Shown piece after piece: positions 4,642 to 47,924 of a stretch of DNA of 48,602 nucleotides. The stretch spans positions 235,910 to 284,511 of the forward strand of contig NZ_JACSPN010000003.1 of NCBI RefSeq assembly GCF_015142735.1, written 5' to 3'. Within the stretch, counting starts at the first letter, position 1; the number at the start of each line of letters is the position of its first letter. The position numbers and the translations under genes are program-made. This DNA comes from Oerskovia douganii. Its GTDB lineage: Bacteria; Actinomycetota; Actinomycetes; Actinomycetales; Cellulomonadaceae. Under the pieces are notes generated by a model. That model did no database searches. It was given only the letters and a program-made list of their open reading frames with translations, and was not told the DNA's origin.

Positions 4642-7600
4642 GTGCACACCTCACCGCGTCATCGAAGAGGTCTCTCAGGCCTGCTCGGAGCTTCCCTGCT
4701 CGTCCCGCTCGCCTTCGCCGGAGCGCTCCCCGCCGCACAGGCGGCCGACACCATGGAGCCCGGCGTCACGCTGCGCACCTTCCAGCTCGCTCAGGACCCG
4801 GGGTCCGTGTGCACCCTCAAGTCGGGCACCACCCCCAACGTCGACAAGCTCATGCCGACCATCGACTGGAGCACGCCCGAGCAGTTCGGTGCGTCGGACC
4901 GCTTCATCACGCACGCCCTCGCGACGCTCACGGTCCCCACCGAGGGTGAGTACACGTTCCGCGTGACGAACGACGACGGCGCGCTCGTCTACGTCGACGA
5001 CCAGCTCCTCCTCGAGAACGACGGCCCGAACGACTCGACGTCCGTCGAGGGGGCGATCACCCTCACCGCAGGAGCGCACGACCTGCGGGTCGAGTACTAC
5101 GAGGGCACGGACAAGCAGCGCCTGACGCTCGCGTGGAAGACCCCGGGGTCGTCGACGTTCGTGGTCGTCCCGACGTCGGCCCTGAGCACCGAGGCGAACG
5201 TCGTGCGCGTCACCGCGCCCGGCAACAAGTACTGCGAGGGGGCGACGGACAGCTCGGGCGACGGGCTGCGCCTCGACGCGGTCAACCCCAACTACGAGCT
5301 CGTCGACCTGCGCCCCGCGGGCTTCGAGCCCAAGGTCTCGGGCCTCGCCTTCACCCCGGACGAGAAGCTTGCCGTCGTGACCACGGGCGACGTGAGCTCC
5401 GGCGGATGGCGGCCCGACCCGACGACCGGTGAGGTGTACCTCCTCGACGGTGTGATCGACGCGACCGGACCGGAGGACGTCACCGTCACGAAGGTCGCGG
5501 ACAAGCTGCTGAACCCGATGGGCATCGAGGTCATCGAGGACTCGATCTTCGTCTCCGAGCGGTACCAGCTCACGCAGCTCACCGACCCGGACGGCGACGG
5601 CTTCTACGACACGCACACCAAGATCGCCGGGTGGCCCGACGGCGGGAACTTCCACGAGTTCGCGTTCGGCCTGATCCACGACGAGGACTACTTCTACGTC
5701 AACCTCTCCGTCGCGATCGACAACGGCGGCGCGACGACCACGCCGCAGCCCGCCGCCAACCGAGGCACGTCGATCAAGATCGACCGCGCGACGGGCGAGG
5801 TCACGTACGTCGCGGGTGGTCTGCGCACCCCGAACGGGATCGGCTTCGGCCCCGAGGGCGAGATCTTCGGGACGGACAACCAGGGCGCATGGCTGCCCGC
5901 GAACAAGCTCGTGCACATCGAGCAGGACAAGTTCTTCAACCACTTCACCACGCCGGCCGGTCCGTTCGACGCGAACCCCGTCTCCCAGCCCGCGCTGTGG
6001 CTCCCGCAGAACGAGATCGCCAACTCCCCGGGCAACCCGATCCTCGTGCAGGACGGCGAGTTCGCCGGCCAGATGCTCCTGGGCGACGTCACGTACGGCG
6101 GTCTCCAGCGTGCGTTCCTGGAGAAGGTCGACGGCGAGTTCCAGGGTGCGGTCTTCCGCCACACCGCGGGCCTCGAGGTCGGTGCGAACCGCGTCATCAC
6201 CGGCCCCGACGGTGCGCTGTACGTCGGTGGCACGGGCGAGGGCGGCAACTGGGGTGAGTCCGGCAAGCTGCGGTTCGGCCTGCAGAAGCTCACCACGGTG
6301 AACGAGGACTCGTTCGACATGGTGGAGATGCGCGTCGTCGAGGGCGGGTTCGAGATCGAGTACACCGACCCGGTGTCCGACGCCGTCGTCGCGAAGCTGG
6401 CCGACGCCTACCGCCTCACGCAGTGGCGCTACGTGCCGACCCAGCAGTACGGCGGCCCCAAGGTCGACGAGCAGCCGCTGTTCGTCACGGACGCCACCGT
6501 GTCCGAGGACCGCACCACGGTCACGCTGACGGTCGACGGGCTCAAGCCCGGTCACGTCGTGCACCTGCGTTCGCCGCGTCCGTTCGCCTCGAACGAGGGG
6601 GCCGAGCTCCTGAGCACCGAGGCCTGGTACACGCTGAACTCGCTGCCGGGCTACGTCGCCCCGGCCGAGCGTGGCTGGTACGAGGCCGAGGAAGCGCAGC
6701 CGCTCGGTGGCTCGAGCCTCGGCTCGGACCACAGCAACTACTCCGGCACGGGCTTCGCCGCCGGGATGCAGAACGTCGGCTCGGGTCGGCAGTTCTCCGT
6801 GACGGTCCCCGAGGCGGGCACCTACCCGCTCAACCTGCGCTACGCCAACGGCATCCACCCGTACACCGAGCTGCGCTCCAAGGACGTGTCGCTCTACGTG
6901 AACGGTCAGAAGGTCGGCCCGTGGACGCTGCCCACGACCGGCGACTGGAAGAAGTGGGACACGATCACCCGTGAGGTCGCCCTCGTGGCGGGCCACAACA
7001 CGGTCACCCTGAAGTACGACCAGGGCGACCAGGGCAACGTGAACCTCGACGTGCTGTCGATCGGGCAGAACCCTGACATCTGCTCCCCGGCGGACGTCGA
7101 GGACGGCTACCGCGGCATCTTCGACGGTACCCTCGCGAGCCTTGCGGACTGGAGCCTCGCCGGTGCCGGCACGTTCGGGCGTCAGGACGACTGCTCGATC
7201 CGCACCAACGGTGGCATGGGCCTGCTCTGGTACACGGCGGAGGAGCTCGAGGAGTACTCGCTCAAGCTCGACTGGAAGCTCGTCAAGGACGACAACGGCG
7301 GCGTGTTCGTCGGCTTCCCGAACCCCGGCAACGACCCTTGGGTCGCGGTCAACAAGGGGTACGAGATCCAGATCGACGCGAGCGACGCCGCTGACCGCAC
7401 GACCGGTGCGATCTACACGTTCCAGGGCGCCGACGCGGCGGCCGTGACCGCGGCCCTCAAGCCCGTCGGGCAGTGGAACGCGTACGACATCCGCGTCGAG
7501 GGGGACCGTATCCGGATCTACCTCAACGACGTGCTCGTCAACGACTTCACGAGCACCGACCCGGCTCGTGACCTGTCGAGCGGGTTCATCGGGATCCAGA

Positions 7601-7950
7601 ACCACGGCAACGGTGAGACGGTCTCCTACCGCAACATCCGCGTCAAGGACCTGGGCGCCGAGCCCGAGCCCGAGGTCGCGGTGTCCGTGACCGTCCAGGC
7701 CAAGTGCCTCGCGGGCAAGGTCTCGCTGAGCGTCCGTGCCGTCAACGACGACACGGTGCCGGTCGACGTCGTGCTCAGGACGCCGTTCGGCACGAAGACC
7801 ATGGTCGGCGTCCTGCCGGGCAAGTCCGCCCAGCAGACGTTCTCGACGCGCTCGACCTCGGTCGAGGCCGGGACAGCCACCGTGTCGGCGAGCGCCGGGG
7901 ACAGGGAGGTCGTGGTCGAGACGGCCTACGACGCGTCGAGCTGTGGCTGA
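4642..7950 (+). CDS. Secreted PA14 / beta-propeller / CBM6-like / DUF1080 protein
   Basis: A 1102-residue exported protein. The GTG at 4642 has an ideal AAGGAGG ten bases upstream and opens a Sec signal peptide, cleaved near AQA (residue 34). Seen in order: a PA14-type beta-sandwich (about 40-190); a sugar/sorbosone-dehydrogenase-like propeller (about 213-550) with repeated blocks such as LRTPNGIGFGPEGEIFGTDNQG; a beta-rich linker; a CBM6-like module (about 676-809) beginning WYEAEEA; a DUF1080 domain (about 818-1004) beginning YRGIFDGTLASLADW and ending FIGIQNHGNGETVSYRNIRVKDL; and a C-terminal Ig-like domain with two cysteines. DUF1080 is associated with hydrolysis of 3-keto-glycosides. A role in extracellular oxidative sugar breakdown is inferred. 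It is related through propeller and DUF1080 to the protein at 42697-46737. Confidence 0.85.
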   Translation: MHTSPRHRRGLSGLLGASLLVPLAFAGALPAAQAADTMEPGVTLRTFQLAQDPGSVCTLKSGTTPNVDKLMPTIDWSTPEQFGASDRFITHALATLTVPTEGEYTFRVTNDDGALVYVDDQLLLENDGPNDSTSVEGAITLTAGAHDLRVEYYEGTDKQRLTLAWKTPGSSTFVVVPTSALSTEANVVRVTAPGNKYCEGATDSSGDGLRLDAVNPNYELVDLRPAGFEPKVSGLAFTPDEKLAVVTTGDVSSGGWRPDPTTGEVYLLDGVIDATGPEDVTVTKVADKLLNPMGIEVIEDSIFVSERYQLTQLTDPDGDGFYDTHTKIAGWPDGGNFHEFAFGLIHDEDYFYVNLSVAIDNGGATTTPQPAANRGTSIKIDRATGEVTYVAGGLRTPNGIGFGPEGEIFGTDNQGAWLPANKLVHIEQDKFFNHFTTPAGPFDANPVSQPALWLPQNEIANSPGNPILVQDGEFAGQMLLGDVTYGGLQRAFLEKVDGEFQGAVFRHTAGLEVGANRVITGPDGALYVGGTGEGGNWGESGKLRFGLQKLTTVNEDSFDMVEMRVVEGGFEIEYTDPVSDAVVAKLADAYRLTQWRYVPTQQYGGPKVDEQPLFVTDATVSEDRTTVTLTVDGLKPGHVVHLRSPRPFASNEGAELLSTEAWYTLNSLPGYVAPAERGWYEAEEAQPLGGSSLGSDHSNYSGTGFAAGMQNVGSGRQFSVTVPEAGTYPLNLRYANGIHPYTELRSKDVSLYVNGQKVGPWTLPTTGDWKKWDTITREVALVAGHNTVTLKYDQGDQGNVNLDVLSIGQNPDICSPADVEDGYRGIFDGTLASLADWSLAGAGTFGRQDDCSIRTNGGMGLLWYTAEELEEYSLKLDWKLVKDDNGGVFVGFPNPGNDPWVAVNKGYEIQIDASDAADRTTGAIYTFQGADAAAVTAALKPVGQWNAYDIRVEGDRIRIYLNDVLVNDFTSTDPARDLSSGFIGIQNHGNGETVSYRNIRVKDLGAEPEPEVAVSVTVQAKCLAGKVSLSVRAVNDDTVPVDVVLRTPFGTKTMVGVLPGKSAQQTFSTRSTSVEAGTATVSASAGDREVVVETAYDASSCG

Positions 7951-10311: not shown

Positions 10312-10335
<24 letters not shown>
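8146..10335 (+). CDS. MMPL/RND-family membrane transporter
   Basis: A 729-residue polytopic protein with the two-fold MMPL architecture: one N-terminal helix, an extracytoplasmic domain, a bundle of helices, then the same again. The diagnostic helices are visible: GLGLAVDYSLLVIVRFREER in the first half and FLFGLSMDYEVFLLARIAEEW in the second, with the Asp-Tyr pair thought to take part in proton relay. MMPL proteins export lipids, siderophores or hydrophobic compounds using proton-motive force. The substrate here is unknown. The ATG at 8146 follows an AGAGGTGG ribosome-binding site; an upstream in-frame ATG at 7999 lies in the terminator. Its last 24 bases overlap the convergent galactose gene tail to tail. 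Confidence 0.88.
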
Positions 10336-12833
<2,498 letters not shown>

Positions 12834-12837
<4 letters not shown>

Positions 12838-40428: not shown

Positions 40429-42594
40429 TCAGCGGCCGACGTCCGACAGCTCGGCCGCGGTGATGATCCGTCGACGTTCGACCGGCCGGATCACGCCGTC
40501 GTCGACGAGGTCGCGCGTGACCTGCTTGACGTGCTGCAGGAAGGCCCGGTGGTTGGGGTAGTCGTCGTCCTCCGCGACGAGATCGTTGATGGTGCAGCCG
40601 TTGCCCGTGTCCACGTTCGTCACGGTGCTGTCGTTGCCGTCGATGACGACCGTCGGTCGGACGTCGGAGCCGGGGCACCGGTCCAGCCCCTGCACGACGA
40701 CCGTGAAGATGACCGACCGGGCCTTCGACACGTTCCCCGCGGCGTCGGTCGCGCGGTAGGTCACGGTGTGGTTGCCGTCCGTGGCGACGACCACCGGCGC
40801 CGCATAGCGCTGCCACGCGCCGCCGTCGACCTGGAGCTCGGTCCGGTCGACCCCCGAGCCCGCGTCGGTCGCGACCAGGGTGATCGTGACCTTCCCGAGG
40901 AACGCCCCGCGCAGGTCCCGGCTCCCGCTGAGGGTCGCCGTCACCTCGGGCGCGACGGTGTCGGCAGGCACGGTCGACTCCACCACGAACGAGACGGTAC
41001 CCGGCGCCGACACGTTGCCCGCTCGGTCCGTCGCGCGGAACGCGACCGTGTGCGAGCCCGGCGTCGCGACCACCACCTGGGTCGCGTAGCGGTACCACGT
41101 ACCGCCGTCGACCTGGGACTCGATCGTCGCGACGCCGGAGTCGTCGTCGGTCGCGGTCAACCGGACCTGTGCGCTGCCCACGTACTCGCCCGCGCTGTTC
41201 CTGGCGCCGTAGACCCCGGCGGTCACCACGGGAGCGACGGTGTCGCCCGGGTCGGCCGGAACGACCGTCAGGGTCACGGAGGCGACCTCGGAGACGTTCC
41301 CGGCCTCGTCCGTCGCACGGTAGGCGAGCGAGCGGTCACCCGGCTCGTCCAGCACGACCGCCGTGGTGTAGCCGGTCCACGCCCCGCCGTCGACCGCGTA
41401 CTCGATCGAGGCGACACCGGACCCCTCGTCGGTCGCCGTGAGCGTGACGGTCGCCGACCCGACGTACGCACCCACGCCGTCCTGGTCGCCGCTGACCGTG
41501 GCGGCCACGACCGGTGCCGTCGTGTCCTCCTCGCCGTCACCCGCGACGACGACGAACGTCGACGCACCGACCTCGGAGACGTTGCCCGCGACGTCGGTCG
41601 CGCGGTAGGAGACGGTGTGCTCGCCCGGCTCGGTGATGGTGACCGGTGCGGTGTACGGCATCCAGTGCCCGCCGTGCACGTCGACCTCGATCGAGGCGAC
41701 ACCCGACCCGTCGTCCTGGGCCGCGACGGTCACGGTCGCGGAGTCGACGTACGCACCGTCGTCGTCCTGGTGGCCCGCGACCTCGGCGGTCACGGTCGGG
41801 GCGACCGTGTCCTCCTCACCGCCCCCCTCGACGACCGTGAACGTCGCCGTCTGCGGGGCCGAGGTGTTGCCCGCCTCGTCCGTGGCGCGGAACCCGAGGG
41901 AGTGCTCGCCGACGGTCTCGACGACGAACGGTGCGTCGTACACCCGCCAGCCGGCACCGTCCAGGTCGTACTCCACGCCCGCGACTCCCGACCCGTCGTC
42001 GGTCGCGGCGAGCGTGACCGTGGCGCCGCCGACGTACGCACCGGCGCCGTCCCGCTCGCCCGTCACCTCGGCGCTGACCGCCGGTGCCGTCGTGTCGTCG
42101 CCGCCCCCGCCGTCCTCGGTCACGACGAGCTCGCCCCACATCTCGCCGTGGCCGGGGATCGCGCAGAAGTAGCGGTACGTGCCCGGAGTCAGCACGACCT
42201 CGGCCACGTGCTTGCCGCCGTTCGTGTCGAACGGGCTCGCCAGGATGTCGAGCGTGACGTCGTGGTTGTAGCCGGGGGTCGACGTGTCGAAGGTCAGTGT
42301 GTGGCTCATGCCGAACGTGCTGCCGGTCGCGACGCTGTTCTCGAACACGATCGTCGCCTTCCCGGCGGTGGCCGTCGCCGGGAACGTCTTGTAGTCGGTG
42401 ACGCTGTTGTCACCGGTCCAGGTCAGCACCTGCTCGGCCGCGACGGTCGTCGCGGTCGTCGTGGACGACTGGTTCGCACCGGGTGGGGCGGCCGTCGCCG
42501 GGGCGACGGAGACGACCGTGGCGGCGGTGAGGCCGGCGACCAGGGCGGCCACGAGCCGTCGTGCGCCGCGAGCTCTCGAGCTTCTTCGTTCCAT
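40429..42594 (-). CDS. Secreted cupredoxin fused to five Ig-like (OmpL47-type) repeats
   Basis: A 721-residue exported protein. The ATG at 42594 has GAGGAG nine bases upstream and opens a Sec signal (basic start, hydrophobic core, cleavage near ATA-APP, residue 36). Residues about 55-160 are a plastocyanin/azurin-like domain with a full type 1 copper site: His98 (GMSHTLTF), Cys144, His149 and Met152 (FCAIPGHGEMWG). Five repeats of about 94 residues follow, each starting D-T-x-A-P and containing DxGSGV and FRATDxAGN motifs, as in OmpL47-type domains. The last ~80 residues form a module shared with the ThuA protein. A periplasm-like or wall-associated electron carrier held on a stalk is inferred. 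Third gene after the copper oxidase and ThuA genes. Confidence 0.88.
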   Translation of the reverse strand: MERRSSRARGARRLVAALVAGLTAATVVSVAPATAAPPGANQSSTTTATTVAAEQVLTWTGDNSVTDYKTFPATATAGKATIVFENSVATGSTFGMSHTLTFDTSTPGYNHDVTLDILASPFDTNGGKHVAEVVLTPGTYRYFCAIPGHGEMWGELVVTEDGGGGDDTTAPAVSAEVTGERDGAGAYVGGATVTLAATDDGSGVAGVEYDLDGAGWRVYDAPFVVETVGEHSLGFRATDEAGNTSAPQTATFTVVEGGGEEDTVAPTVTAEVAGHQDDDGAYVDSATVTVAAQDDGSGVASIEVDVHGGHWMPYTAPVTITEPGEHTVSYRATDVAGNVSEVGASTFVVVAGDGEEDTTAPVVAATVSGDQDGVGAYVGSATVTLTATDEGSGVASIEYAVDGGAWTGYTTAVVLDEPGDRSLAYRATDEAGNVSEVASVTLTVVPADPGDTVAPVVTAGVYGARNSAGEYVGSAQVRLTATDDDSGVATIESQVDGGTWYRYATQVVVATPGSHTVAFRATDRAGNVSAPGTVSFVVESTVPADTVAPEVTATLSGSRDLRGAFLGKVTITLVATDAGSGVDRTELQVDGGAWQRYAAPVVVATDGNHTVTYRATDAAGNVSKARSVIFTVVVQGLDRCPGSDVRPTVVIDGNDSTVTNVDTGNGCTINDLVAEDDDYPNHRAFLQHVKQVTRDLVDDGVIRPVERRRIITAAELSDVGR

Positions 42595-42622
42595 GGGTGT
42601 GCACTCCTCGTCGATGTGCAAT

Positions 42623-42648
42623 GGGTCGGGGTCGGGGTCGGGGTCGGG
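42623..42648 (+). repeat. G-quadruplex-capable hexamer repeat
   Basis: Five runs of 3-4 G separated by TC (GGGTCG units) lie in the 102-bp gap between the ThuA and cupredoxin genes, on the strand that is template for these genes. It satisfies the four-run, short-loop rule for G-quadruplexes. Confidence 0.7.
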
Positions 42649-42652
42649 TGCC

Positions 42653-42687
42653 GGTCGGCGAGGGCGGCGTGGCCGCCCCCGCCGACC
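42653..42687 (-). terminator. Intercistronic terminator/attenuator hairpin after the ThuA gene
   Basis: Two 16-nt arms (42653-42668 and 42672-42687) pair with one A-C mismatch around a GTG loop, 9 bases after the stop. It may reduce read-through into the cupredoxin gene. Confidence 0.65.
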
Positions 42688-42696
42688 AGGTGGGTG

Positions 42697-45600
42697 CTAC
42701 AGGTCTGCCACCCGGATGTCGCGGAACTCGATGAGGTCCGCGTTCCCGTGGTTCTGCAGCCCGATGAACCCGCGGTCGAACTGGCGCAGGTCCGTCGGCG
42801 GGTCGCCCGCACGCGAGGACTGCTGGCCCGGCGTGTTCTCGAACTCGTTGATGACGACGCCGTTGCGGATGATCGTGTACTTCTGTCCGACCACCCGGAT
42901 CTCGTACTCGTTCCACTCGCCCTTGGGGGTGACCCCAGCCCCGCCACGAGCGACGGGGTCGAAGTTGTAGACCGAGCCCGTCTTCTGCGGCTCACCCGTC
43001 GGGCCGTCGTAGATCTGGATCTCGTGACCGCACGAGATCGCGACCCACGCCGGGGACTGCCCCTGCGCGCACTCGGCGTCGCCGGGTGCCGTCGGGTCGG
43101 GGAACCGGGTGAAGACGCCGCTGTTCGCGTACGCGGTTCCCTGGGAGACGTCGCGGAAGAGCAGCTTGACCGAGAAGTCGCCGAGGTCCTGCGCCTGGTA
43201 CCAGAGCATCCCCAGCCCCCCGGACGACCGGAGCGACCCGTCGTCTCGGAGCTCGAACTTCCCACCGGGCAGCTGGACCCAGTCGAACAGCGACTCCTGG
43301 GTGCCGTCGAAGATCGTGCGGTACCCGCCGGGCTCCACGCCGATCTGCGATCGCGCGGCGGCGTTGACGAGCGCCTGACGCTCCTTGCCCGTGACGCGGC
43401 TGTCGTCGACCAGGCCCTTCGCCACGGCCTTGACGTGCCGCAGGAACTGGTTGTGGTTCTTCCACTCCTTCTCGTCCTGGAACAGGTCGTTGATCGTGCA
43501 CCCGCCCAGGTCGTCGTTGGTCACGCCCGAGTCGGTCCCGCCGAACCACACGGTGCTCCGGGTGTCCGGCAGGGTGCACGTCGTGGCCGCGGCGGTCCCG
43601 GCCGTGGCCGTGCTGCCGTCGGCATACGTCACGGTGAGCGTCGCGTCGTACGACCCGACGCGCGCGTACGTGTGTCGCGGGTTCGCCTCACGTGACGTCT
43701 GGCCGTCGCCGAAGTCCCAGTGGTAGGCGACGCCACCGGAACGCTCACCGGAGAAGGCGACCGTGAGCGGGTCCCCCTGGACGCTCGTCCCCGATGCGGC
43801 CACGGCCGGGGTGGGAGCCCCTCCCTGGTAGGTGACGCGGACCAGCTTCTGGTTCGGGTCGAGGCTGAAGAAGCCCCCCGCGTAGTCGAGCAGGTAGAGC
43901 GCGCCGTCGGCGCCGAACGACGCGTCCATCCAGCTCTGCACCAGGCCGTCGCCGCGACCGCCGGGGACGATGCGGCGCAGGTCCTCCATGAACGCGGGGG
44001 CGCCCTGCTCGCTCACGGTCTGCGGGTCGACGGTCACGGCCACGCGGTTGTTCGAGTTCGACTGGTCCCCGAGCAGCCACTTGCCCTCCCAGTACGAGGG
44101 CCACGCGACGTCGCTCTTCGGGTCGACCTGCGAGGTCCGGTAGGTCGGTCCCGACATGACGGCCTGTCCACCTCCCCGCAGCCACGGGATCGTGTACGTC
44201 GCCTCGTCGTCGACGTAGGTCGGGACGCCGCCCTCGCCCTCCGGGAAGACCGGTCCGCCGCCGCTGGGCGAGTACCAGATCATGTTGTCGCGTGCCGGGG
44301 GGATGTCCACGAGGCCGGTGTTGCGGGGCGACGTGTTCTTGAGGTCGTCACAGTCGTACCACCCGGCGAGGACGCTCGCGTCCTCGTTGCTCCGGTCGCG
44401 GTACGGCTGGCCGTTCCCCATGCAGTAGGGCCAGCCCTGGTTGCCGGCGGACGTGATGATCGTCGCCGTCTCGTACTTCGCGGGGCCCAGCTCCGGGTCG
44501 GGCAGGGTCGCGTCGGGCCCCACCCAGGCGGCCGTCAGCCAGTCGGTGTCGGGGTCGATCTGCAGACGCGAGATGTTCCGCACGCCCATCACGTAGATCT
44601 CCGGCCTGGTCTTGTCGGCCGTGTGCTCGCCCACGGGGAACAGGTTGCCCTCCGGGATCGTGTACGTGCCGTCGTCCTCGGGGTGGATCCGCAGGATCTT
44701 GCCGTTGAGGTCGTTGGTGCTGCCCGACGTGCGCCGCGCGTCCTGGAAGCTGATGCCCGCGTACTCCTGGGTCCAGTTGTTCCCGGAGTAGCCGCCCGAG
44801 CCGCCCGACGAGTTGCTGTCGCCCGAGCCGACGTAGAGGTTGCCCGCGTCGTCGAACGCCATGCCGCCGCCCGCGTGGCAGCAGCTGTGGATCTGCGTCT
44901 CCCACTCGAGCAGGTCGACACGCGTGTTCTGGTCGATGCGCGGGCCCTTCGGGTCGTACGTGAAGCGGGACACCGTGCGCTGACCGACCCGGCGCTCGCG
45001 GTCGATCGACTCGTGCGGCATCCAGTAGACGTAGATCCACCTGTTCGTGGCGAAGTCCGGGTCGGGGACGATCCCGAGCAGGCCTTCCTCGTTCTTGACC
45101 AGCTCGCTGCCGCTGCCACGGTTGCCCATGACGTCGAGCGTCCCCAGGAGGCTGACCGCTCCCGTGGCCGGGTCCCACTCGTGGATCGTGCCGCAACCGA
45201 GGCCGACGTCGGGGTTCTCCCACGAGACGATCGGACCCGTCGGGCACGCGCCGCGCCCGACGTAGAAGACCTTCCCGTCCGGGGCGACCGTCAGGCCGTG
45301 CGGCTCGCCGATCTGGTCGAGCTCCCCGGCGCTGTTCGGAGCGGTGATGCGTTCGACGGTGTAGTTCGACGCGATCGTCGCCTGGCAGTCGCCGCGCACG
45401 ACGCCGGTCGTCCACTGCAGCGCGCCGAGCAGGTGCTGGCGGAACGTCGCGTCGGCCCAGCCGCCCGCCGTGCCGCCCATGCCGGTGAAGAACGAGCGTC
45501 CGCCGTCGTAGTCACGGCACCAGGACACGGGCTCGAACGGTGACGTCGTCGGCCCCGCGCCGGTTCCCGGCTCGAGCTGTGCGACGGTGTGCACCTCGCC

Positions 45601-46737
45601 GGCCGGGCTGTCGGACCAGCCCAGCCACCTGTCCTCGCGGTCCCAGGTGAGGGGGAGCGACGCGGTGGCCGGGTGCTGGCGGTCGATCAGGTCGACCGTG
45701 CGCGCCTCGACCGGGAGCTCGGGGTCGGGCTGCTCGATCGCGTCCGGACCGTACAGCGAGATCTCGGCGAGCTGGGTCGAGCTCTCGCCGCGGTTCTGCG
45801 TGATCGAGAGCCGGTACCAGCCGTACGCGGTGGGGCTCGCGACGTCGAAGTCCCGACGCTGGAAGCGTTGCGGGAAGTCCTCGTCGCTCCGGGTGTCGAC
45901 GTCGACCCAGGTCGAGCCGTCGGTCGAGCCCTGGAGCGTCCACGACCGCGGGTCACGACCGTCGAAGTCGTTGGCCGACGTCAGCGAGTAGCGCGCGAGC
46001 GCGACCGGCTCCTCGAGCCGCAGGGTGATGGTCGCCGTCGTCCTGAACGCGAGCCACTTGGTGCCAGGGTCGCCGTCGACCAGGTTCTTGGCCCCCTCGT
46101 TCGGGGCGTTCTCGGCGCTCGCGGTGACCTCTGCGACGTCCTCGGCGTCCGGCTGGGCACCGGCGATCCGAGCACCCAGCAGACCCGTGAACCACTGGGA
46201 GGAGTCCTGGGCGCGCGCCGCGTCGCGCACGCCCAGGAAGCCGCCGCCCGCGTTGACGAAGCTCTTGAGGTCCGCCTCCTGCGCGGCGCTGAGCTCGACT
46301 CCCTCGGCGGACAGGAAGACGACGCCGCGGTACTCGCCCAGCACCGACCGGCTGAACACGCCAGGGTCGGAGGAGACGTCCACGGAGAACCCGTGCTCCG
46401 CTCCGAGCTCGGTGAACGCCTGCGTCGCCTCGACGACCGGATCGTCCTGGGCGTCAGGGGCTCCGTGGAACACGAGGACACGCACGGGAGCAGCAGCAGC
46501 CGCCGCTGCGGCAGCGCGCGCCGCGTCGGGTGCCGTGCTGGTCGTGGTGGTCGTGGTGGTCGCTGTCGCCGTCGTCGGCGGGGCCGCTGCGACGGAGCGC
46601 TCGACCTGACCGACCGCGGGGGTCACGGTCGCGACGGCGACGAGCGCGAGGCTCGTCAGGCCGACCGCCATGGTTCGCCAGGCTCCTGGTCGGGAACGGC
46701 CTCTCGTGGTGGGGGGAACAGCTCGTCTGGATGGCAC
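42697..46737 (-). CDS. Secreted ThuA / F5-8C / sugar-dehydrogenase propeller / PKD / DUF1080 protein
   Basis: A 1346-residue exported protein, starting GTG at 46737 with AAGGAG seven bases upstream and a signal peptide (to about residue 43). The ThuA amidotransferase-like fold is split: residues 84-198 and 333-450 (HPATASLPLTW onward) flank an inserted F5/8-type C (galactose-binding) domain, 199-330. A sorbosone/glucose-dehydrogenase propeller spans about 460-970 (EEGLLGIVPDPDF; HSCCHAGGGMAFDDAGNLYVG with vicinal Cys619-Cys620), then PKD (975-1050), an unnamed module (1053-1133) and DUF1080 (1138-1346). ThuA and DUF1080 are linked to 3-keto-glycosides, and the propeller to PQQ sugar oxidation. 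There is no CxxCH haem site. Oxidative extracellular sugar cleavage with copper partners is inferred. Confidence 0.88.
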   Translation of the reverse strand: MPSRRAVPPTTRGRSRPGAWRTMAVGLTSLALVAVATVTPAVGQVERSVAAAPPTTATATTTTTTTSTAPDAARAAAAAAAAAPVRVLVFHGAPDAQDDPVVEATQAFTELGAEHGFSVDVSSDPGVFSRSVLGEYRGVVFLSAEGVELSAAQEADLKSFVNAGGGFLGVRDAARAQDSSQWFTGLLGARIAGAQPDAEDVAEVTASAENAPNEGAKNLVDGDPGTKWLAFRTTATITLRLEEPVALARYSLTSANDFDGRDPRSWTLQGSTDGSTWVDVDTRSDEDFPQRFQRRDFDVASPTAYGWYRLSITQNRGESSTQLAEISLYGPDAIEQPDPELPVEARTVDLIDRQHPATASLPLTWDREDRWLGWSDSPAGEVHTVAQLEPGTGAGPTTSPFEPVSWCRDYDGGRSFFTGMGGTAGGWADATFRQHLLGALQWTTGVVRGDCQATIASNYTVERITAPNSAGELDQIGEPHGLTVAPDGKVFYVGRGACPTGPIVSWENPDVGLGCGTIHEWDPATGAVSLLGTLDVMGNRGSGSELVKNEEGLLGIVPDPDFATNRWIYVYWMPHESIDRERRVGQRTVSRFTYDPKGPRIDQNTRVDLLEWETQIHSCCHAGGGMAFDDAGNLYVGSGDSNSSGGSGGYSGNNWTQEYAGISFQDARRTSGSTNDLNGKILRIHPEDDGTYTIPEGNLFPVGEHTADKTRPEIYVMGVRNISRLQIDPDTDWLTAAWVGPDATLPDPELGPAKYETATIITSAGNQGWPYCMGNGQPYRDRSNEDASVLAGWYDCDDLKNTSPRNTGLVDIPPARDNMIWYSPSGGGPVFPEGEGGVPTYVDDEATYTIPWLRGGGQAVMSGPTYRTSQVDPKSDVAWPSYWEGKWLLGDQSNSNNRVAVTVDPQTVSEQGAPAFMEDLRRIVPGGRGDGLVQSWMDASFGADGALYLLDYAGGFFSLDPNQKLVRVTYQGGAPTPAVAASGTSVQGDPLTVAFSGERSGGVAYHWDFGDGQTSREANPRHTYARVGSYDATLTVTYADGSTATAGTAAATTCTLPDTRSTVWFGGTDSGVTNDDLGGCTINDLFQDEKEWKNHNQFLRHVKAVAKGLVDDSRVTGKERQALVNAAARSQIGVEPGGYRTIFDGTQESLFDWVQLPGGKFELRDDGSLRSSGGLGMLWYQAQDLGDFSVKLLFRDVSQGTAYANSGVFTRFPDPTAPGDAECAQGQSPAWVAISCGHEIQIYDGPTGEPQKTGSVYNFDPVARGGAGVTPKGEWNEYEIRVVGQKYTIIRNGVVINEFENTPGQQSSRAGDPPTDLRQFDRGFIGLQNHGNADLIEFRDIRVADL

Positions 46738-46847
46738 TCTCCAACTCCTTCGTCATCAGTGCGGTGCGCTCCGGGGGGACCCGGACGCCGGACAGGTGGT
46801 GCGAGGTGGAAGGTCGTGGTGCACGGTGCAGGGGACACGCGGGGACG

Positions 46848-47924
46848 TCAGTGCCCCGGGTGTCCCGCCTGCCCGCTCTCGTCGGGAAGGGGCGGCGCGA
46901 CGGGGTCGACGGCTGCGCCCGCATGCCCGCCGTGGCCTCGGAATCGGTCGATGGACTCCTGCGCGCCGGGGGGCATGCTGCCGTCGGCGTTGCGGACGAG
47001 GAAGATCCCGGCCATCCCGCCGTCGGCGTGGAACTGCACGTGGCAGTGGTACATCCAGGCGCCCGGCCCGACGCCCAGCCCGGCGACGACCTGGAACCCG
47101 AACGAGTCGCCGGGGTTGAGGTCGCGGTTGTCGACGACCTGGCTCGGGTCGTCCCTGCCTTGGAGCAGACCGGTGCGGCTGTTGGCCCAACGGTGCGCGT
47201 GGAGGTGGAACGTGTGGAACGTGTTGCCGTGGCCGATGCAGATGAACTCGACGCGCTCGCCGAGCTTCGCCTCGAACATCGGGGTGTCCGGTGCGGCCTT
47301 GTTGTTCACGAGCATGTCGTTGAAGACCACCGTGAACTGCTTCTGGGGGAGGACGTCGCCCACCCTGCGCACGACGAGGGCTCCGTAGAGCCCGGCCGCG
47401 ACACCGGGAGTGCCGTGCTCGCCCCACGCGTGGTCGTGATAGTGCCAGTAGCCCGCGCTCCCTGGCATCCAGATGCCGCGGTCGCGGGCCATGGGGACGG
47501 TCGACCAGACGTAGACGCGCGTCTCCCCGGGCTCGTTGAACGAGTCGTTGAACGGGCTGCCGTCGCTGTCCACGTCGTAGTTGACGCCGTGCGGGTGGAT
47601 GGACAGGCGCTGATCGGTCGTGTTGACGAGGGTGATCTCGAGGGTCTCGCCCTCCCACATCTCGAGCACCGGTCCGGGGACCGTCGCCGTCCCCGCGGCG
47701 AGCCCGTAACCGACCATGCCGCCCGGGAGCCGTTCGGCGTACATCGTGATGCGCCGGACGGTGGCGCTCGGCGCGGGCGCCGCGGCGGCGGCCGGTGCGA
47801 CGGCTCCGCCGGGCCCGAGCACGTAGGCGGCGACCGGAGCCGCTGCGAGGACGCCCGCTCCGAGGAGCAGGGAACGTCTGGAGAGCGGGTTCGCGGGCTG
47901 GAGCTCTGACGTCGGGTCGCTCAT
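46848..47924 (-). CDS. Tat-exported two-domain multicopper oxidase
   Basis: A 358-residue exported copper enzyme. The ATG at 47924 has GGAAGGA six bases upstream and gives a twin-arginine signal (SRRSLLLGAG, Arg16-Arg17), meaning export after folding with copper. Copper ligands are complete: His110/His112 (HPHG), His161/His163 (HYHDH), His237/His240/His242 (HTFHLH), His293-Cys294-His295, His299 and Met304 (HCHVQFHADGGM). The size fits two-domain laccases or small oxidases that work as trimers, reducing oxygen at a trinuclear site while oxidising an organic or protein donor. The His-rich C-terminus may hold extra copper. First gene of the set; the ThuA gene follows after 110 bp. The cupredoxin protein is a plausible electron donor. 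Confidence 0.92.
   Translation of the reverse strand: MSDPTSELQPANPLSRRSLLLGAGVLAAAPVAAYVLGPGGAVAPAAAAAPAPSATVRRITMYAERLPGGMVGYGLAAGTATVPGPVLEMWEGETLEITLVNTTDQRLSIHPHGVNYDVDSDGSPFNDSFNEPGETRVYVWSTVPMARDRGIWMPGSAGYWHYHDHAWGEHGTPGVAAGLYGALVVRRVGDVLPQKQFTVVFNDMLVNNKAAPDTPMFEAKLGERVEFICIGHGNTFHTFHLHAHRWANSRTGLLQGRDDPSQVVDNRDLNPGDSFGFQVVAGLGVGPGAWMYHCHVQFHADGGMAGIFLVRNADGSMPPGAQESIDRFRGHGGHAGAAVDPVAPPLPDESGQAGHPGH

Follow-up and report, generated by a model that had tools for sequence, protein, structure and literature searches.

A conserved cluster of a small laccase, a ThuA-propeller protein and a cupredoxin in Oerskovia douganii and its relatives: a probable oxygen-dependent chain for extracellular sugar oxidation

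Few bacterial copper enzymes have been studied as much as the small laccases, whose natural electron donor is, to our knowledge, unsettled. The small-laccase (SLAC) literature consulted here treats them as stand-alone phenol oxidases. In the three-domain copper nitrite reductase of Hyphomicrobium (2dv6), a cupredoxin acts together with a two-domain enzyme resembling a copper oxidase; this reductase is one fused chain and reduces nitrite. Oxidation before cleavage is the order followed by Caulobacter LacABC (with DUF1080), rhizobial ThuAB and Bacteroides BT2157, which employ the DUF1080 and ThuA families; as far as we know, the dehydrogenase of these pathways has another fold and its electrons are not routed to copper proteins. 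For the fungal AA12-AA8 pyranose dehydrogenase, we know of no dedicated laccase or DUF1080 protein. This enzyme is a secreted sugar-oxidising propeller with a one-electron carrier, and its cofactor, pyrroloquinoline quinone, is made by prokaryotes (PMC6881810, PMC6881789). The oxidation by Caulobacter LacABC lies outside the cytoplasm (PMC9007349). Here, we describe three neighbouring genes of Oerskovia douganii (assembly GCF_015142735.1, genome of 4.25 Mb) located in a stretch of 48,602 nucleotides at the end of contig NZ_JACSPN010000003.1 (positions 235,910 to 284,511), which is the whole of the DNA analysed and is called the window below. Their secreted products probably form an oxygen-dependent extracellular oxidation chain for sugars or glycosides. 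Such a cluster would be a variant of the glycoside pathways that oxidise before cleaving, with copper proteins carrying the electrons to oxygen, and no description of it was found in the open-licence literature searched, partly by title among the hits listed. The three genes are as follows.

46848..47924, minus strand: two-domain small laccase (SLAC type) of 358 residues with a Tat-like signal, Cu-oxidase_2/3 and four copper motifs; proposed terminal oxidase
42697..46737, minus strand: ThuA/F5-8/propeller/PKD/shared module/DUF1080 protein of 1346 residues (the middle protein); proposed extracellular glycoside dehydrogenase and processing enzyme
40429..42594, minus strand: cupredoxin/five OmpL47 repeats/module protein of 721 residues; proposed electron carrier

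The intergenic gaps are 110 bases (laccase/middle) and 102 bases (middle/cupredoxin), and the context upstream of the laccase is cut off because the window stops at the contig end. An earlier note on this DNA, made from its letters, had described three adjacent genes on one strand, a multicopper oxidase with all copper ligands, a single protein combining ThuA, a propeller and DUF1080, a cupredoxin with a full type 1 site (His98, Cys144, His149 and Met152), and the absence of CxxCH. All of these descriptions were borne out: the three genes lie side by side on the minus strand, the four copper motifs are intact, the three Pfam families score far over their cut-offs, the type 1 site is recovered in both the residues and the predicted fold, and no CxxCH motif was found in the laccase, middle or cupredoxin protein. 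Export of the oxidase by twin-arginine translocation (Tat), also claimed there, was confirmed in part, since the N-terminus carries the Tat-type stretch SRRSLLLG while the Pfam TAT_signal score (16.7 bits) lies under the cut-off of 22.7.

The earlier note had made its proposal depend on a conserved neighbourhood, and such a neighbourhood was observed. The middle protein, whose best named matches in a scan of genome contigs belong to Cellulosimicrobium, Oerskovia and Isoptericola, gave 226 relatives, of which the best 80 (about 25 genera by title) were kept, so that the sample favours close relatives. Both laccase and cupredoxin were located within about 10 kb of the middle gene in 76 of these 80 loci. 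The arrangement laccase, middle, cupredoxin on one strand accounts for 58 loci and other orders or strands for 10, 6, 1 and 1, meaning that gene order varies while linkage persists; two of the exceptions (L078 and L096) run into contig ends. When 1136 predicted genes were clustered more strictly, the middle protein was assigned to 80 loci, the laccase to 62, the cupredoxin to 70 plus 4, and the next family to only 24. A Pfam scan of one member of this commonest fourth family (24/80 loci) gave nothing. A LacA- or ThuB-type dehydrogenase did not emerge as a constant neighbour, no fourth family being kept in more than 24 of the 80 loci in this survey, which included no search aimed at LacA or ThuB. 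Sugar-type regulators were found by Streptomyces clusters, namely LacI in L170 and S. fungicidicus and ROK in L106, L107, L110 and L171.

Co-occurrence was also evident in two samples of whole genomes. Among 81 genomes of the family, 16 contain the laccase. Of these, 14 also contain the cupredoxin, and a search with the C-terminal part of the middle protein (E ≤ 1e-50) picked out the same 14 and no others. Among 296 genomes of the class, the laccase (E ≤ 1e-60, at most 6 candidates per genome) was detected in 42. Of these, 40 also gave a cupredoxin match (E ≤ 1e-15); the 254 genomes lacking the laccase gave none. Fifty of the 296 were scanned with the propeller profile, namely the 42 and a further 8 that have the shared module but no laccase; it matched 41/42 of the former and 0/8 of the latter. 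In 38 of the 42, the three genes share a contig and lie within about 8 kb. The remaining ones comprise G146 and G161 with a diverged in-cluster cupredoxin (39% and 38% identity), G246 with its cupredoxin on another contig, and G098, where laccase and cupredoxin stand at a contig end and no propeller match was obtained. Fisher tests of the laccase/cupredoxin association gave p 1.6e-47 at the genome level and p 1.5e-11 at the genus level, values that serve only as a guide because the genomes are related. An arrangement of chance neighbours is rejected by the 76/80 linkage, the 296-genome co-distribution and these tests.

Among the lines of support, fusions carry most weight. All 18 laccase-bearing genomes of one genus, called Streptomyces-like because its member G215 has a laccase that shares 93.4% identity over 303 residues with S. 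coelicolor SLAC (3cg8), encode a short propeller protein with open frames of 826–904 residues. In all five of these loci that were read (L169-L172 and L175), the short protein matches ThuA and the propeller only, and the cupredoxin, the repeats, the module and DUF1080 are joined in one frame. Pfam accordingly placed ThuA and GSDH in the first protein of L170, and DUF1080 with Ig-like repeats in the second. The same exchange was observed in S. fungicidicus (NZ_CP023408), where a 730-residue protein annotated as ‘family 16 glycoside hydrolase’ unites a type 1 cupredoxin, Ig-like repeats and DUF1080, and adjoins a ‘ThuA domain-containing protein’ and a ‘multicopper oxidase’. The named Streptomyces among the 80 loci (e.g., L073 and L106) possess the long middle protein with DUF1080 and a divergent cupredoxin, and DUF1080 is present on both middle and cupredoxin proteins in 6/80 loci. 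An arrangement of laccase and cupredoxin without propeller in Streptomyces was considered and rejected, as the short ThuA-propeller protein is present in all 18 laccase-bearing genomes.

More distant relatives were sought among 17 plasmid records with a propeller match, 7 of which, including that of S. fungicidicus, were opened at the match. Haladaptatus pallidirubidus encodes two propeller-cupredoxin fusions, one with the order ThuA-propeller-malectin-cupredoxin and one in which the cupredoxin forms the C-terminus of a propeller protein; a multicopper oxidase gene is located about 3.4 kb from the nearer fusion, with a TIM-barrel sugar isomerase-type gene in between. In Halocatena salina, the cupredoxin is fused ahead of the propeller. 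The three haloarchaeal cupredoxins are of plastocyanin type and keep the Cys-x2-His-x3-Met pattern as well as the upstream His. Natronococcus has DUF1080 fused to the propeller, and Runella combines propeller, PKD, cytochrome c and CBM6 in one protein, so that fusion of cytochrome c to this propeller in other phyla, mentioned in the earlier note, was seen in the one Bacteroidota example opened. No CxxCH was present in the frames checked of the Gemmatirosa and Paenibacillus propeller records. The cupredoxin-propeller fusions of two haloarchaea and the DUF1080-cupredoxin fusions of Streptomyces support the electron route proposed below. For the three proteins, it is thus established that they are present with intact ligand sets, that their linkage is conserved and their distribution shared, and that domains are swapped among them. 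The domains of the middle and cupredoxin proteins that are exchanged in this way, and those that accompany them, are as follows.

46111..46482, minus strand: ThuA first half, residues 86-209 (PF06283, E 3.9e-45, two stretches, best 86-209)
45787..46128, minus strand: F5/8 type C domain within ThuA, residues 204-317 (PF00754, E 2.3e-10)
45358..45717, minus strand: ThuA second half, about residues 341-460 (limits set by the authors; adjoins the first half in matches of relatives)
43813..45306, minus strand: six-bladed quinoprotein-type propeller, residues 478-975 (GSDH, PF07995, E 1.9e-20)
44863..44889, minus strand: HSCCHAGGG, H617-G625 (H621 aligned with catalytic His144 of soluble glucose dehydrogenase)
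43594..43812, minus strand: PKD domain, residues 976-1048 (PF18911, E 2.4e-14)
43333..43578, minus strand: module of about 82 residues, first copy (from alignment; no Pfam family over cut-off)
42709..43326, minus strand: DUF1080/3-keto-disaccharide hydrolase domain, residues 1138-1343 (PF06439, E 1.6e-30)
42100..42450, minus strand: cupredoxin domain with type 1 site H98/C144/H149/M152 (ligands, AlphaFold model, Foldseek)
40687..42096, minus strand: five OmpL47-type repeats (NF047446, E 1.4e-122, 5 stretches)
40432..40683, minus strand: module of about 82 residues, second copy, C-terminal (46% identical to the first)

Judged by its sequence, the gene at 46848-47924 encodes a SLAC-type two-domain small laccase. 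Its copper motifs, numbered with the ATG at 47924 as residue 1, are HPHG at 110, HYHDH at 161, HTFHLHAH at 237 and HCHVQFHADGGM at 293, which agree with the SLAC set HxHG, HxH, HxxHxH and HCHxxxHxxxxM (PMC7036934). The closest PDB matches are small laccases, the Amycolatopsis enzyme 3t9w giving E 3.7e-124 over residues 45-324 of the 359-letter query, and the length of 358 residues together with this near full-length similarity to solved structures is that of a two-domain enzyme. The oxidase therefore belongs to the same family as 3t9w and S. coelicolor 3cg8; in contrast to the stand-alone enzymes of the SLAC literature, the cluster laccases are accompanied by a cupredoxin and a dehydrogenase-like protein. 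Another cluster laccase (L106) is closest to 9ix9/8aip. In seven Micromonospora loci (L082, L093, L096, L100, L103, L105 and L109), the laccase is only 40-44% identical to that of Oerskovia, and six of the seven have a cupredoxin upstream, while a contig end truncates the remaining one. By sequence likeness, a different laccase type may occupy the same place in these loci.

The ligands H98, C144, H149 and M152 of the second copper protein, numbered with the ATG at 42594 as residue 1, are invariant in 32/32 aligned cupredoxins. An AlphaFold model with a mean predicted local distance difference test (pLDDT) of 92.9 displays the cupredoxin fold, and Foldseek placed the three-domain copper nitrite reductase 2dv6 and auracyanin 1qhq at the top, followed by many small laccases; the 2dv6 chain, the best match, is the one introduced above as a fusion. 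The Pfam Copper-bind score (15.5 bits) is under the cut-off of 21.2, so that the label rests on ligands and fold and not on Pfam membership. This cupredoxin would take the place of the cytochrome b domain that acts as carrier in AA12-AA8.

The module of about 82 residues shared by the middle and cupredoxin proteins matched no Pfam family over cut-off and no clear PDB relative (best E 0.031). It was found in 50/296 class genomes, and at 18 places at least in some Jiangella-like genomes, where it also stands C-terminally on peptidases. Eight other module proteins scanned in two Jiangella-like genomes comprised one M14 carboxypeptidase, two S15 peptidases and five propeller proteins, indicating a more general module of secreted enzymes. 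A role as private docking tag of the two proteins was rejected as exclusive; the module may serve surface attachment.

In the middle protein, ThuA (PF06283) scored 155.1 bits against a cut-off of 33.4, split into two stretches by the F5/8 domain; ThuA is continuous by Pfam in the short form of Streptomyces-like locus L170, and no F5/8 match was obtained in five such short propeller proteins. DUF1080 (PF06439, now named ‘3-keto-disaccharide hydrolase’ by Pfam) scored 107 bits against 26.8. DUF1080 proteins are tied to 3-keto-trehalose (BT2157, characterised) and to 3'-keto-lactose (proposed from mutant fitness) (PMC9007349), and ThuA together with ThuB is described as making 3-keto derivatives of trehalose and maltitol (PMC6515357). 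The F5/8 insert is strikingly near to a domain of a GH92 alpha-mannosidase (PDB 7nsn, matched by residues 199-340 of the middle protein; whole-sequence E 1.5e-62), a likeness that hints at mannose-containing substrates.

The propeller scored 73.8 bits against a cut-off of 25 for PF07995, and 31.8 bits, far under the cut-off of 434.55, for NCBIfam TIGR03606. A profile built from 31 propellers matched the A. calcoaceticus soluble glucose dehydrogenase (1c9u, E 9.1e-7) and was alignable to E. coli YliI as well. Hence, A. calcoaceticus GdhB, E. coli YliI and fungal AA12 share with it the same six-bladed family, and the His, Arg-Asn and Gly-Pro positions are aligned. H617-H621 are invariant in 81/81 sequences, H621 being the equivalent of catalytic His144. 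R720-N721, aligned with Arg228-Asn229, which lie at the ketones of pyrroloquinoline quinone (PQQ), and G751-P752, aligned with Gly247-Pro248, which offer carbonyls to the PQQ calcium, are invariant in 81/81 as well (roles from PMC6881810 and PMC6881789); the assignment of G751-P752 is by alignment, and a second invariant Gly-Pro at 740-741 is an alternative candidate. The PQQ and calcium sites, which the earlier note had singled out as decisive, are in this respect retained at the three key positions, at the level of sequence. Unlike GdhB, YliI and AA12, the cluster propeller is fused to ThuA and often to DUF1080, carries an invariant Cys-Cys before the catalytic His, and appears to have the cupredoxin and laccase as its electron partner.

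In the proposed mechanism, the propeller would oxidise a glycoside with a cofactor that is probably PQQ acquired from outside; fungi use PQQ even though it is prokaryote-made, which is a precedent for such supply (PMC6881810). Electrons would be passed singly to the blue copper protein and from there enter the small laccase at its type 1 copper; the laccase would reduce oxygen to water. ThuA and DUF1080 would then work on the oxidised, probably keto-, glycoside and cleave it, whilst the F5/8, PKD, Ig-like repeats and shared module would anchor the parts to carbohydrate or to the cell surface. We take the order of the electron steps from the fusions and the co-distribution. The chain from propeller to cupredoxin, oxidase and oxygen, which the earlier note had put forward, thus gains strong support from linkage, co-occurrence and fusions; we infer the substrate and its oxidation as a glycoside, the PQQ cofactor, the 3-keto product and each electron-transfer step.

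A number of observations weigh against this chain, and some of them suit other explanations, which are taken here together with them. The electron route is drawn from genomics rather than from protein-protein evidence. Among the 80 loci, L065 has a laccase without cupredoxin and L079 has neither partner within 11 kb. Two family genomes (G001 and G003) carry only a laccase, 66-67% identical, with no partner within the 17 kb read, and no propeller or cupredoxin was seen within 9 kb of a plasmid laccase of Streptomyces sp. NBC_00316. ThuA-propeller paralogues, several per genome in two Jiangella-like genomes, have no laccase or cupredoxin in the stretches read, showing that the propeller does not always need these partners. 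Furthermore, two of six Streptomyces neighbour genes scanned (L169 and L172) are not sugar regulators (DUF4291 and FAD oxidoreductase).

The chemistry at the sugar may also be different. Known enzymes of the propeller fold oxidise C1 of sugars and not C3 (PMC6881810), the DUF1080 protein THTE_1561 is cited as an endo-xanthanase/lichenase (PMC9007349), and DUF1080 proteins have been proposed to cut the xanthan backbone (PMC5673643). It is possible, if rather unlikely, that free sugar ends are converted into lactones, with ThuA and DUF1080 acting on a separate substrate that is unoxidised or otherwise oxidised. Such C1 oxidation is compatible with the electron route of the proposed chain, and it is opposed by the swapping of DUF1080 between propeller protein and cupredoxin protein and by the two other DUF1080 proteins tied to keto-sugars mentioned above.

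An improbable reading is quinone cycling, in which the laccase turns lignin phenols into radicals or quinones, the propeller is a sugar-driven quinone reductase and the cupredoxin is a side carrier. Comparable quinone recycling has been proposed for fungal cellobiose dehydrogenase, and the gene linkage is accounted for equally well. S. coelicolor SLAC oxidised 12/23 phenolic substrates tried (PMC3918160), and lignin release from straw was lower in an S. ipomoeae laccase mutant, which was interpreted as a lignin-degradation defect (PMC5675413). On straw the same mutant also grew and respired less, and carbohydrate was enriched in its extract (PMC5675413), so the data fit a lignin view or a sugar-chain view alike. 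Quinone cycling leaves unexplained why the cupredoxin is as constant as the propeller, and why Streptomyces proteins join it to DUF1080 and haloarchaeal ones to the propeller.

Two further readings concern the propeller itself. Its AlphaFold model is of moderate confidence (pLDDT 70.1, predicted template-modelling score 0.82), and Foldseek gave human HHIP as best match, with bacterial glucose dehydrogenase 7cdy and fungal AA12 also found. The equivalents of Lys377, Arg406 and Arg408, which contact the PQQ carboxylates, could not be settled, because the C-terminal blades align too poorly to place them; R898 is Arg in 79/81. PqqE was over cut-off in 0/17 genomes (best 67 of 381 bits), a search in which none of the 14 control genomes passed either, leaving it without a positive control. 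A quite unlikely reading makes small laccases the dedicated terminal oxidases of a sugar-oxidation chain outside the cell, with a propeller that uses no PQQ and instead has a protein-bound redox centre around the invariant Cys-Cys-His; such a centre, perhaps a copper site, a protein-derived cofactor or a redox-active vicinal disulfide, would hand single electrons to the cupredoxin, and the PqqE result would fit it. The two cysteines directly preceding the catalytic His are invariant in the cluster propellers. As an exclusive mark of the laccase-linked clade they were rejected, since they occur in paralogue L117, Haladaptatus, Halocatena, Natronococcus and Paenibacillus; several propeller paralogues are without Cys-Cys-His. 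Equally doubtful is a non-redox propeller serving as a binding scaffold like HHIP, with ThuA and DUF1080 doing all chemistry and the laccase and cupredoxin, linked for another reason, handling copper or cross-linking surface material: the HHIP match and the PqqE result speak for it, and the 81/81 invariance of HSCCH, Arg-Asn and Gly-Pro and the cytochrome c and plastocyanin-type domains fused to the same propeller family in other phyla speak against it.

Several neighbouring and related genes were also recorded. A xylose-isomerase-like TIM-barrel gene lies near the cluster in 11/80 loci, PF01261 being found in all four members scanned. Proteins of this kind are known from keto-sugar pathways, and the product is a possible further enzyme for a keto-sugar. 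It stands within about 2 kb of the middle gene in L046, L081, L082, L093, L096 and L105, and likewise in L107, L110, L111, L113 and L114. On the Haladaptatus plasmid, the stretch L185:3421-15325 encodes the oxidase, the TIM barrel and the two propeller-cupredoxin fusions one after another, and may be an archaeal equivalent of the cluster. The partnerless laccases of L164 and L165 (G001 and G003) and L178 showed tblastn identities of 52-64% to that of Oerskovia. In the Oerskovia genome itself, three propeller paralogues (L116, L117 and L118) have frames of 2072, 1865 and 1155 residues and no laccase or cupredoxin match in the stretches read, and L117 retains Cys-Cys-His. Elsewhere in the window, a second DUF1080 protein of 1102 residues (4642-7950, plus strand) contains PA14, DUF7133, CBM35/CBM6 and DUF1080, and one 841-residue protein (10312-12837, minus strand) unites galactose-1-phosphate uridylyltransferase and galactokinase domains.

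The conserved linkage and the trading of domains point to small laccases as a possible oxygen-consuming terminus of sugar oxidation outside the cell. A native role for these enzymes can thereby be put to the test, given the 93% identity between a laccase of such a cluster and S. coelicolor SLAC. If the chain is real, the partner of small laccases would be a blue copper protein and their job would be to make oxygen usable as the final acceptor for a secreted sugar dehydrogenase, giving self-contained extracellular glycan oxidation without membrane, cytochrome or NAD. The lignin phenotypes of laccase mutants would then be seen in a new light, and the cluster would provide partner pairs for bioelectrodes and for glycoside oxidation.

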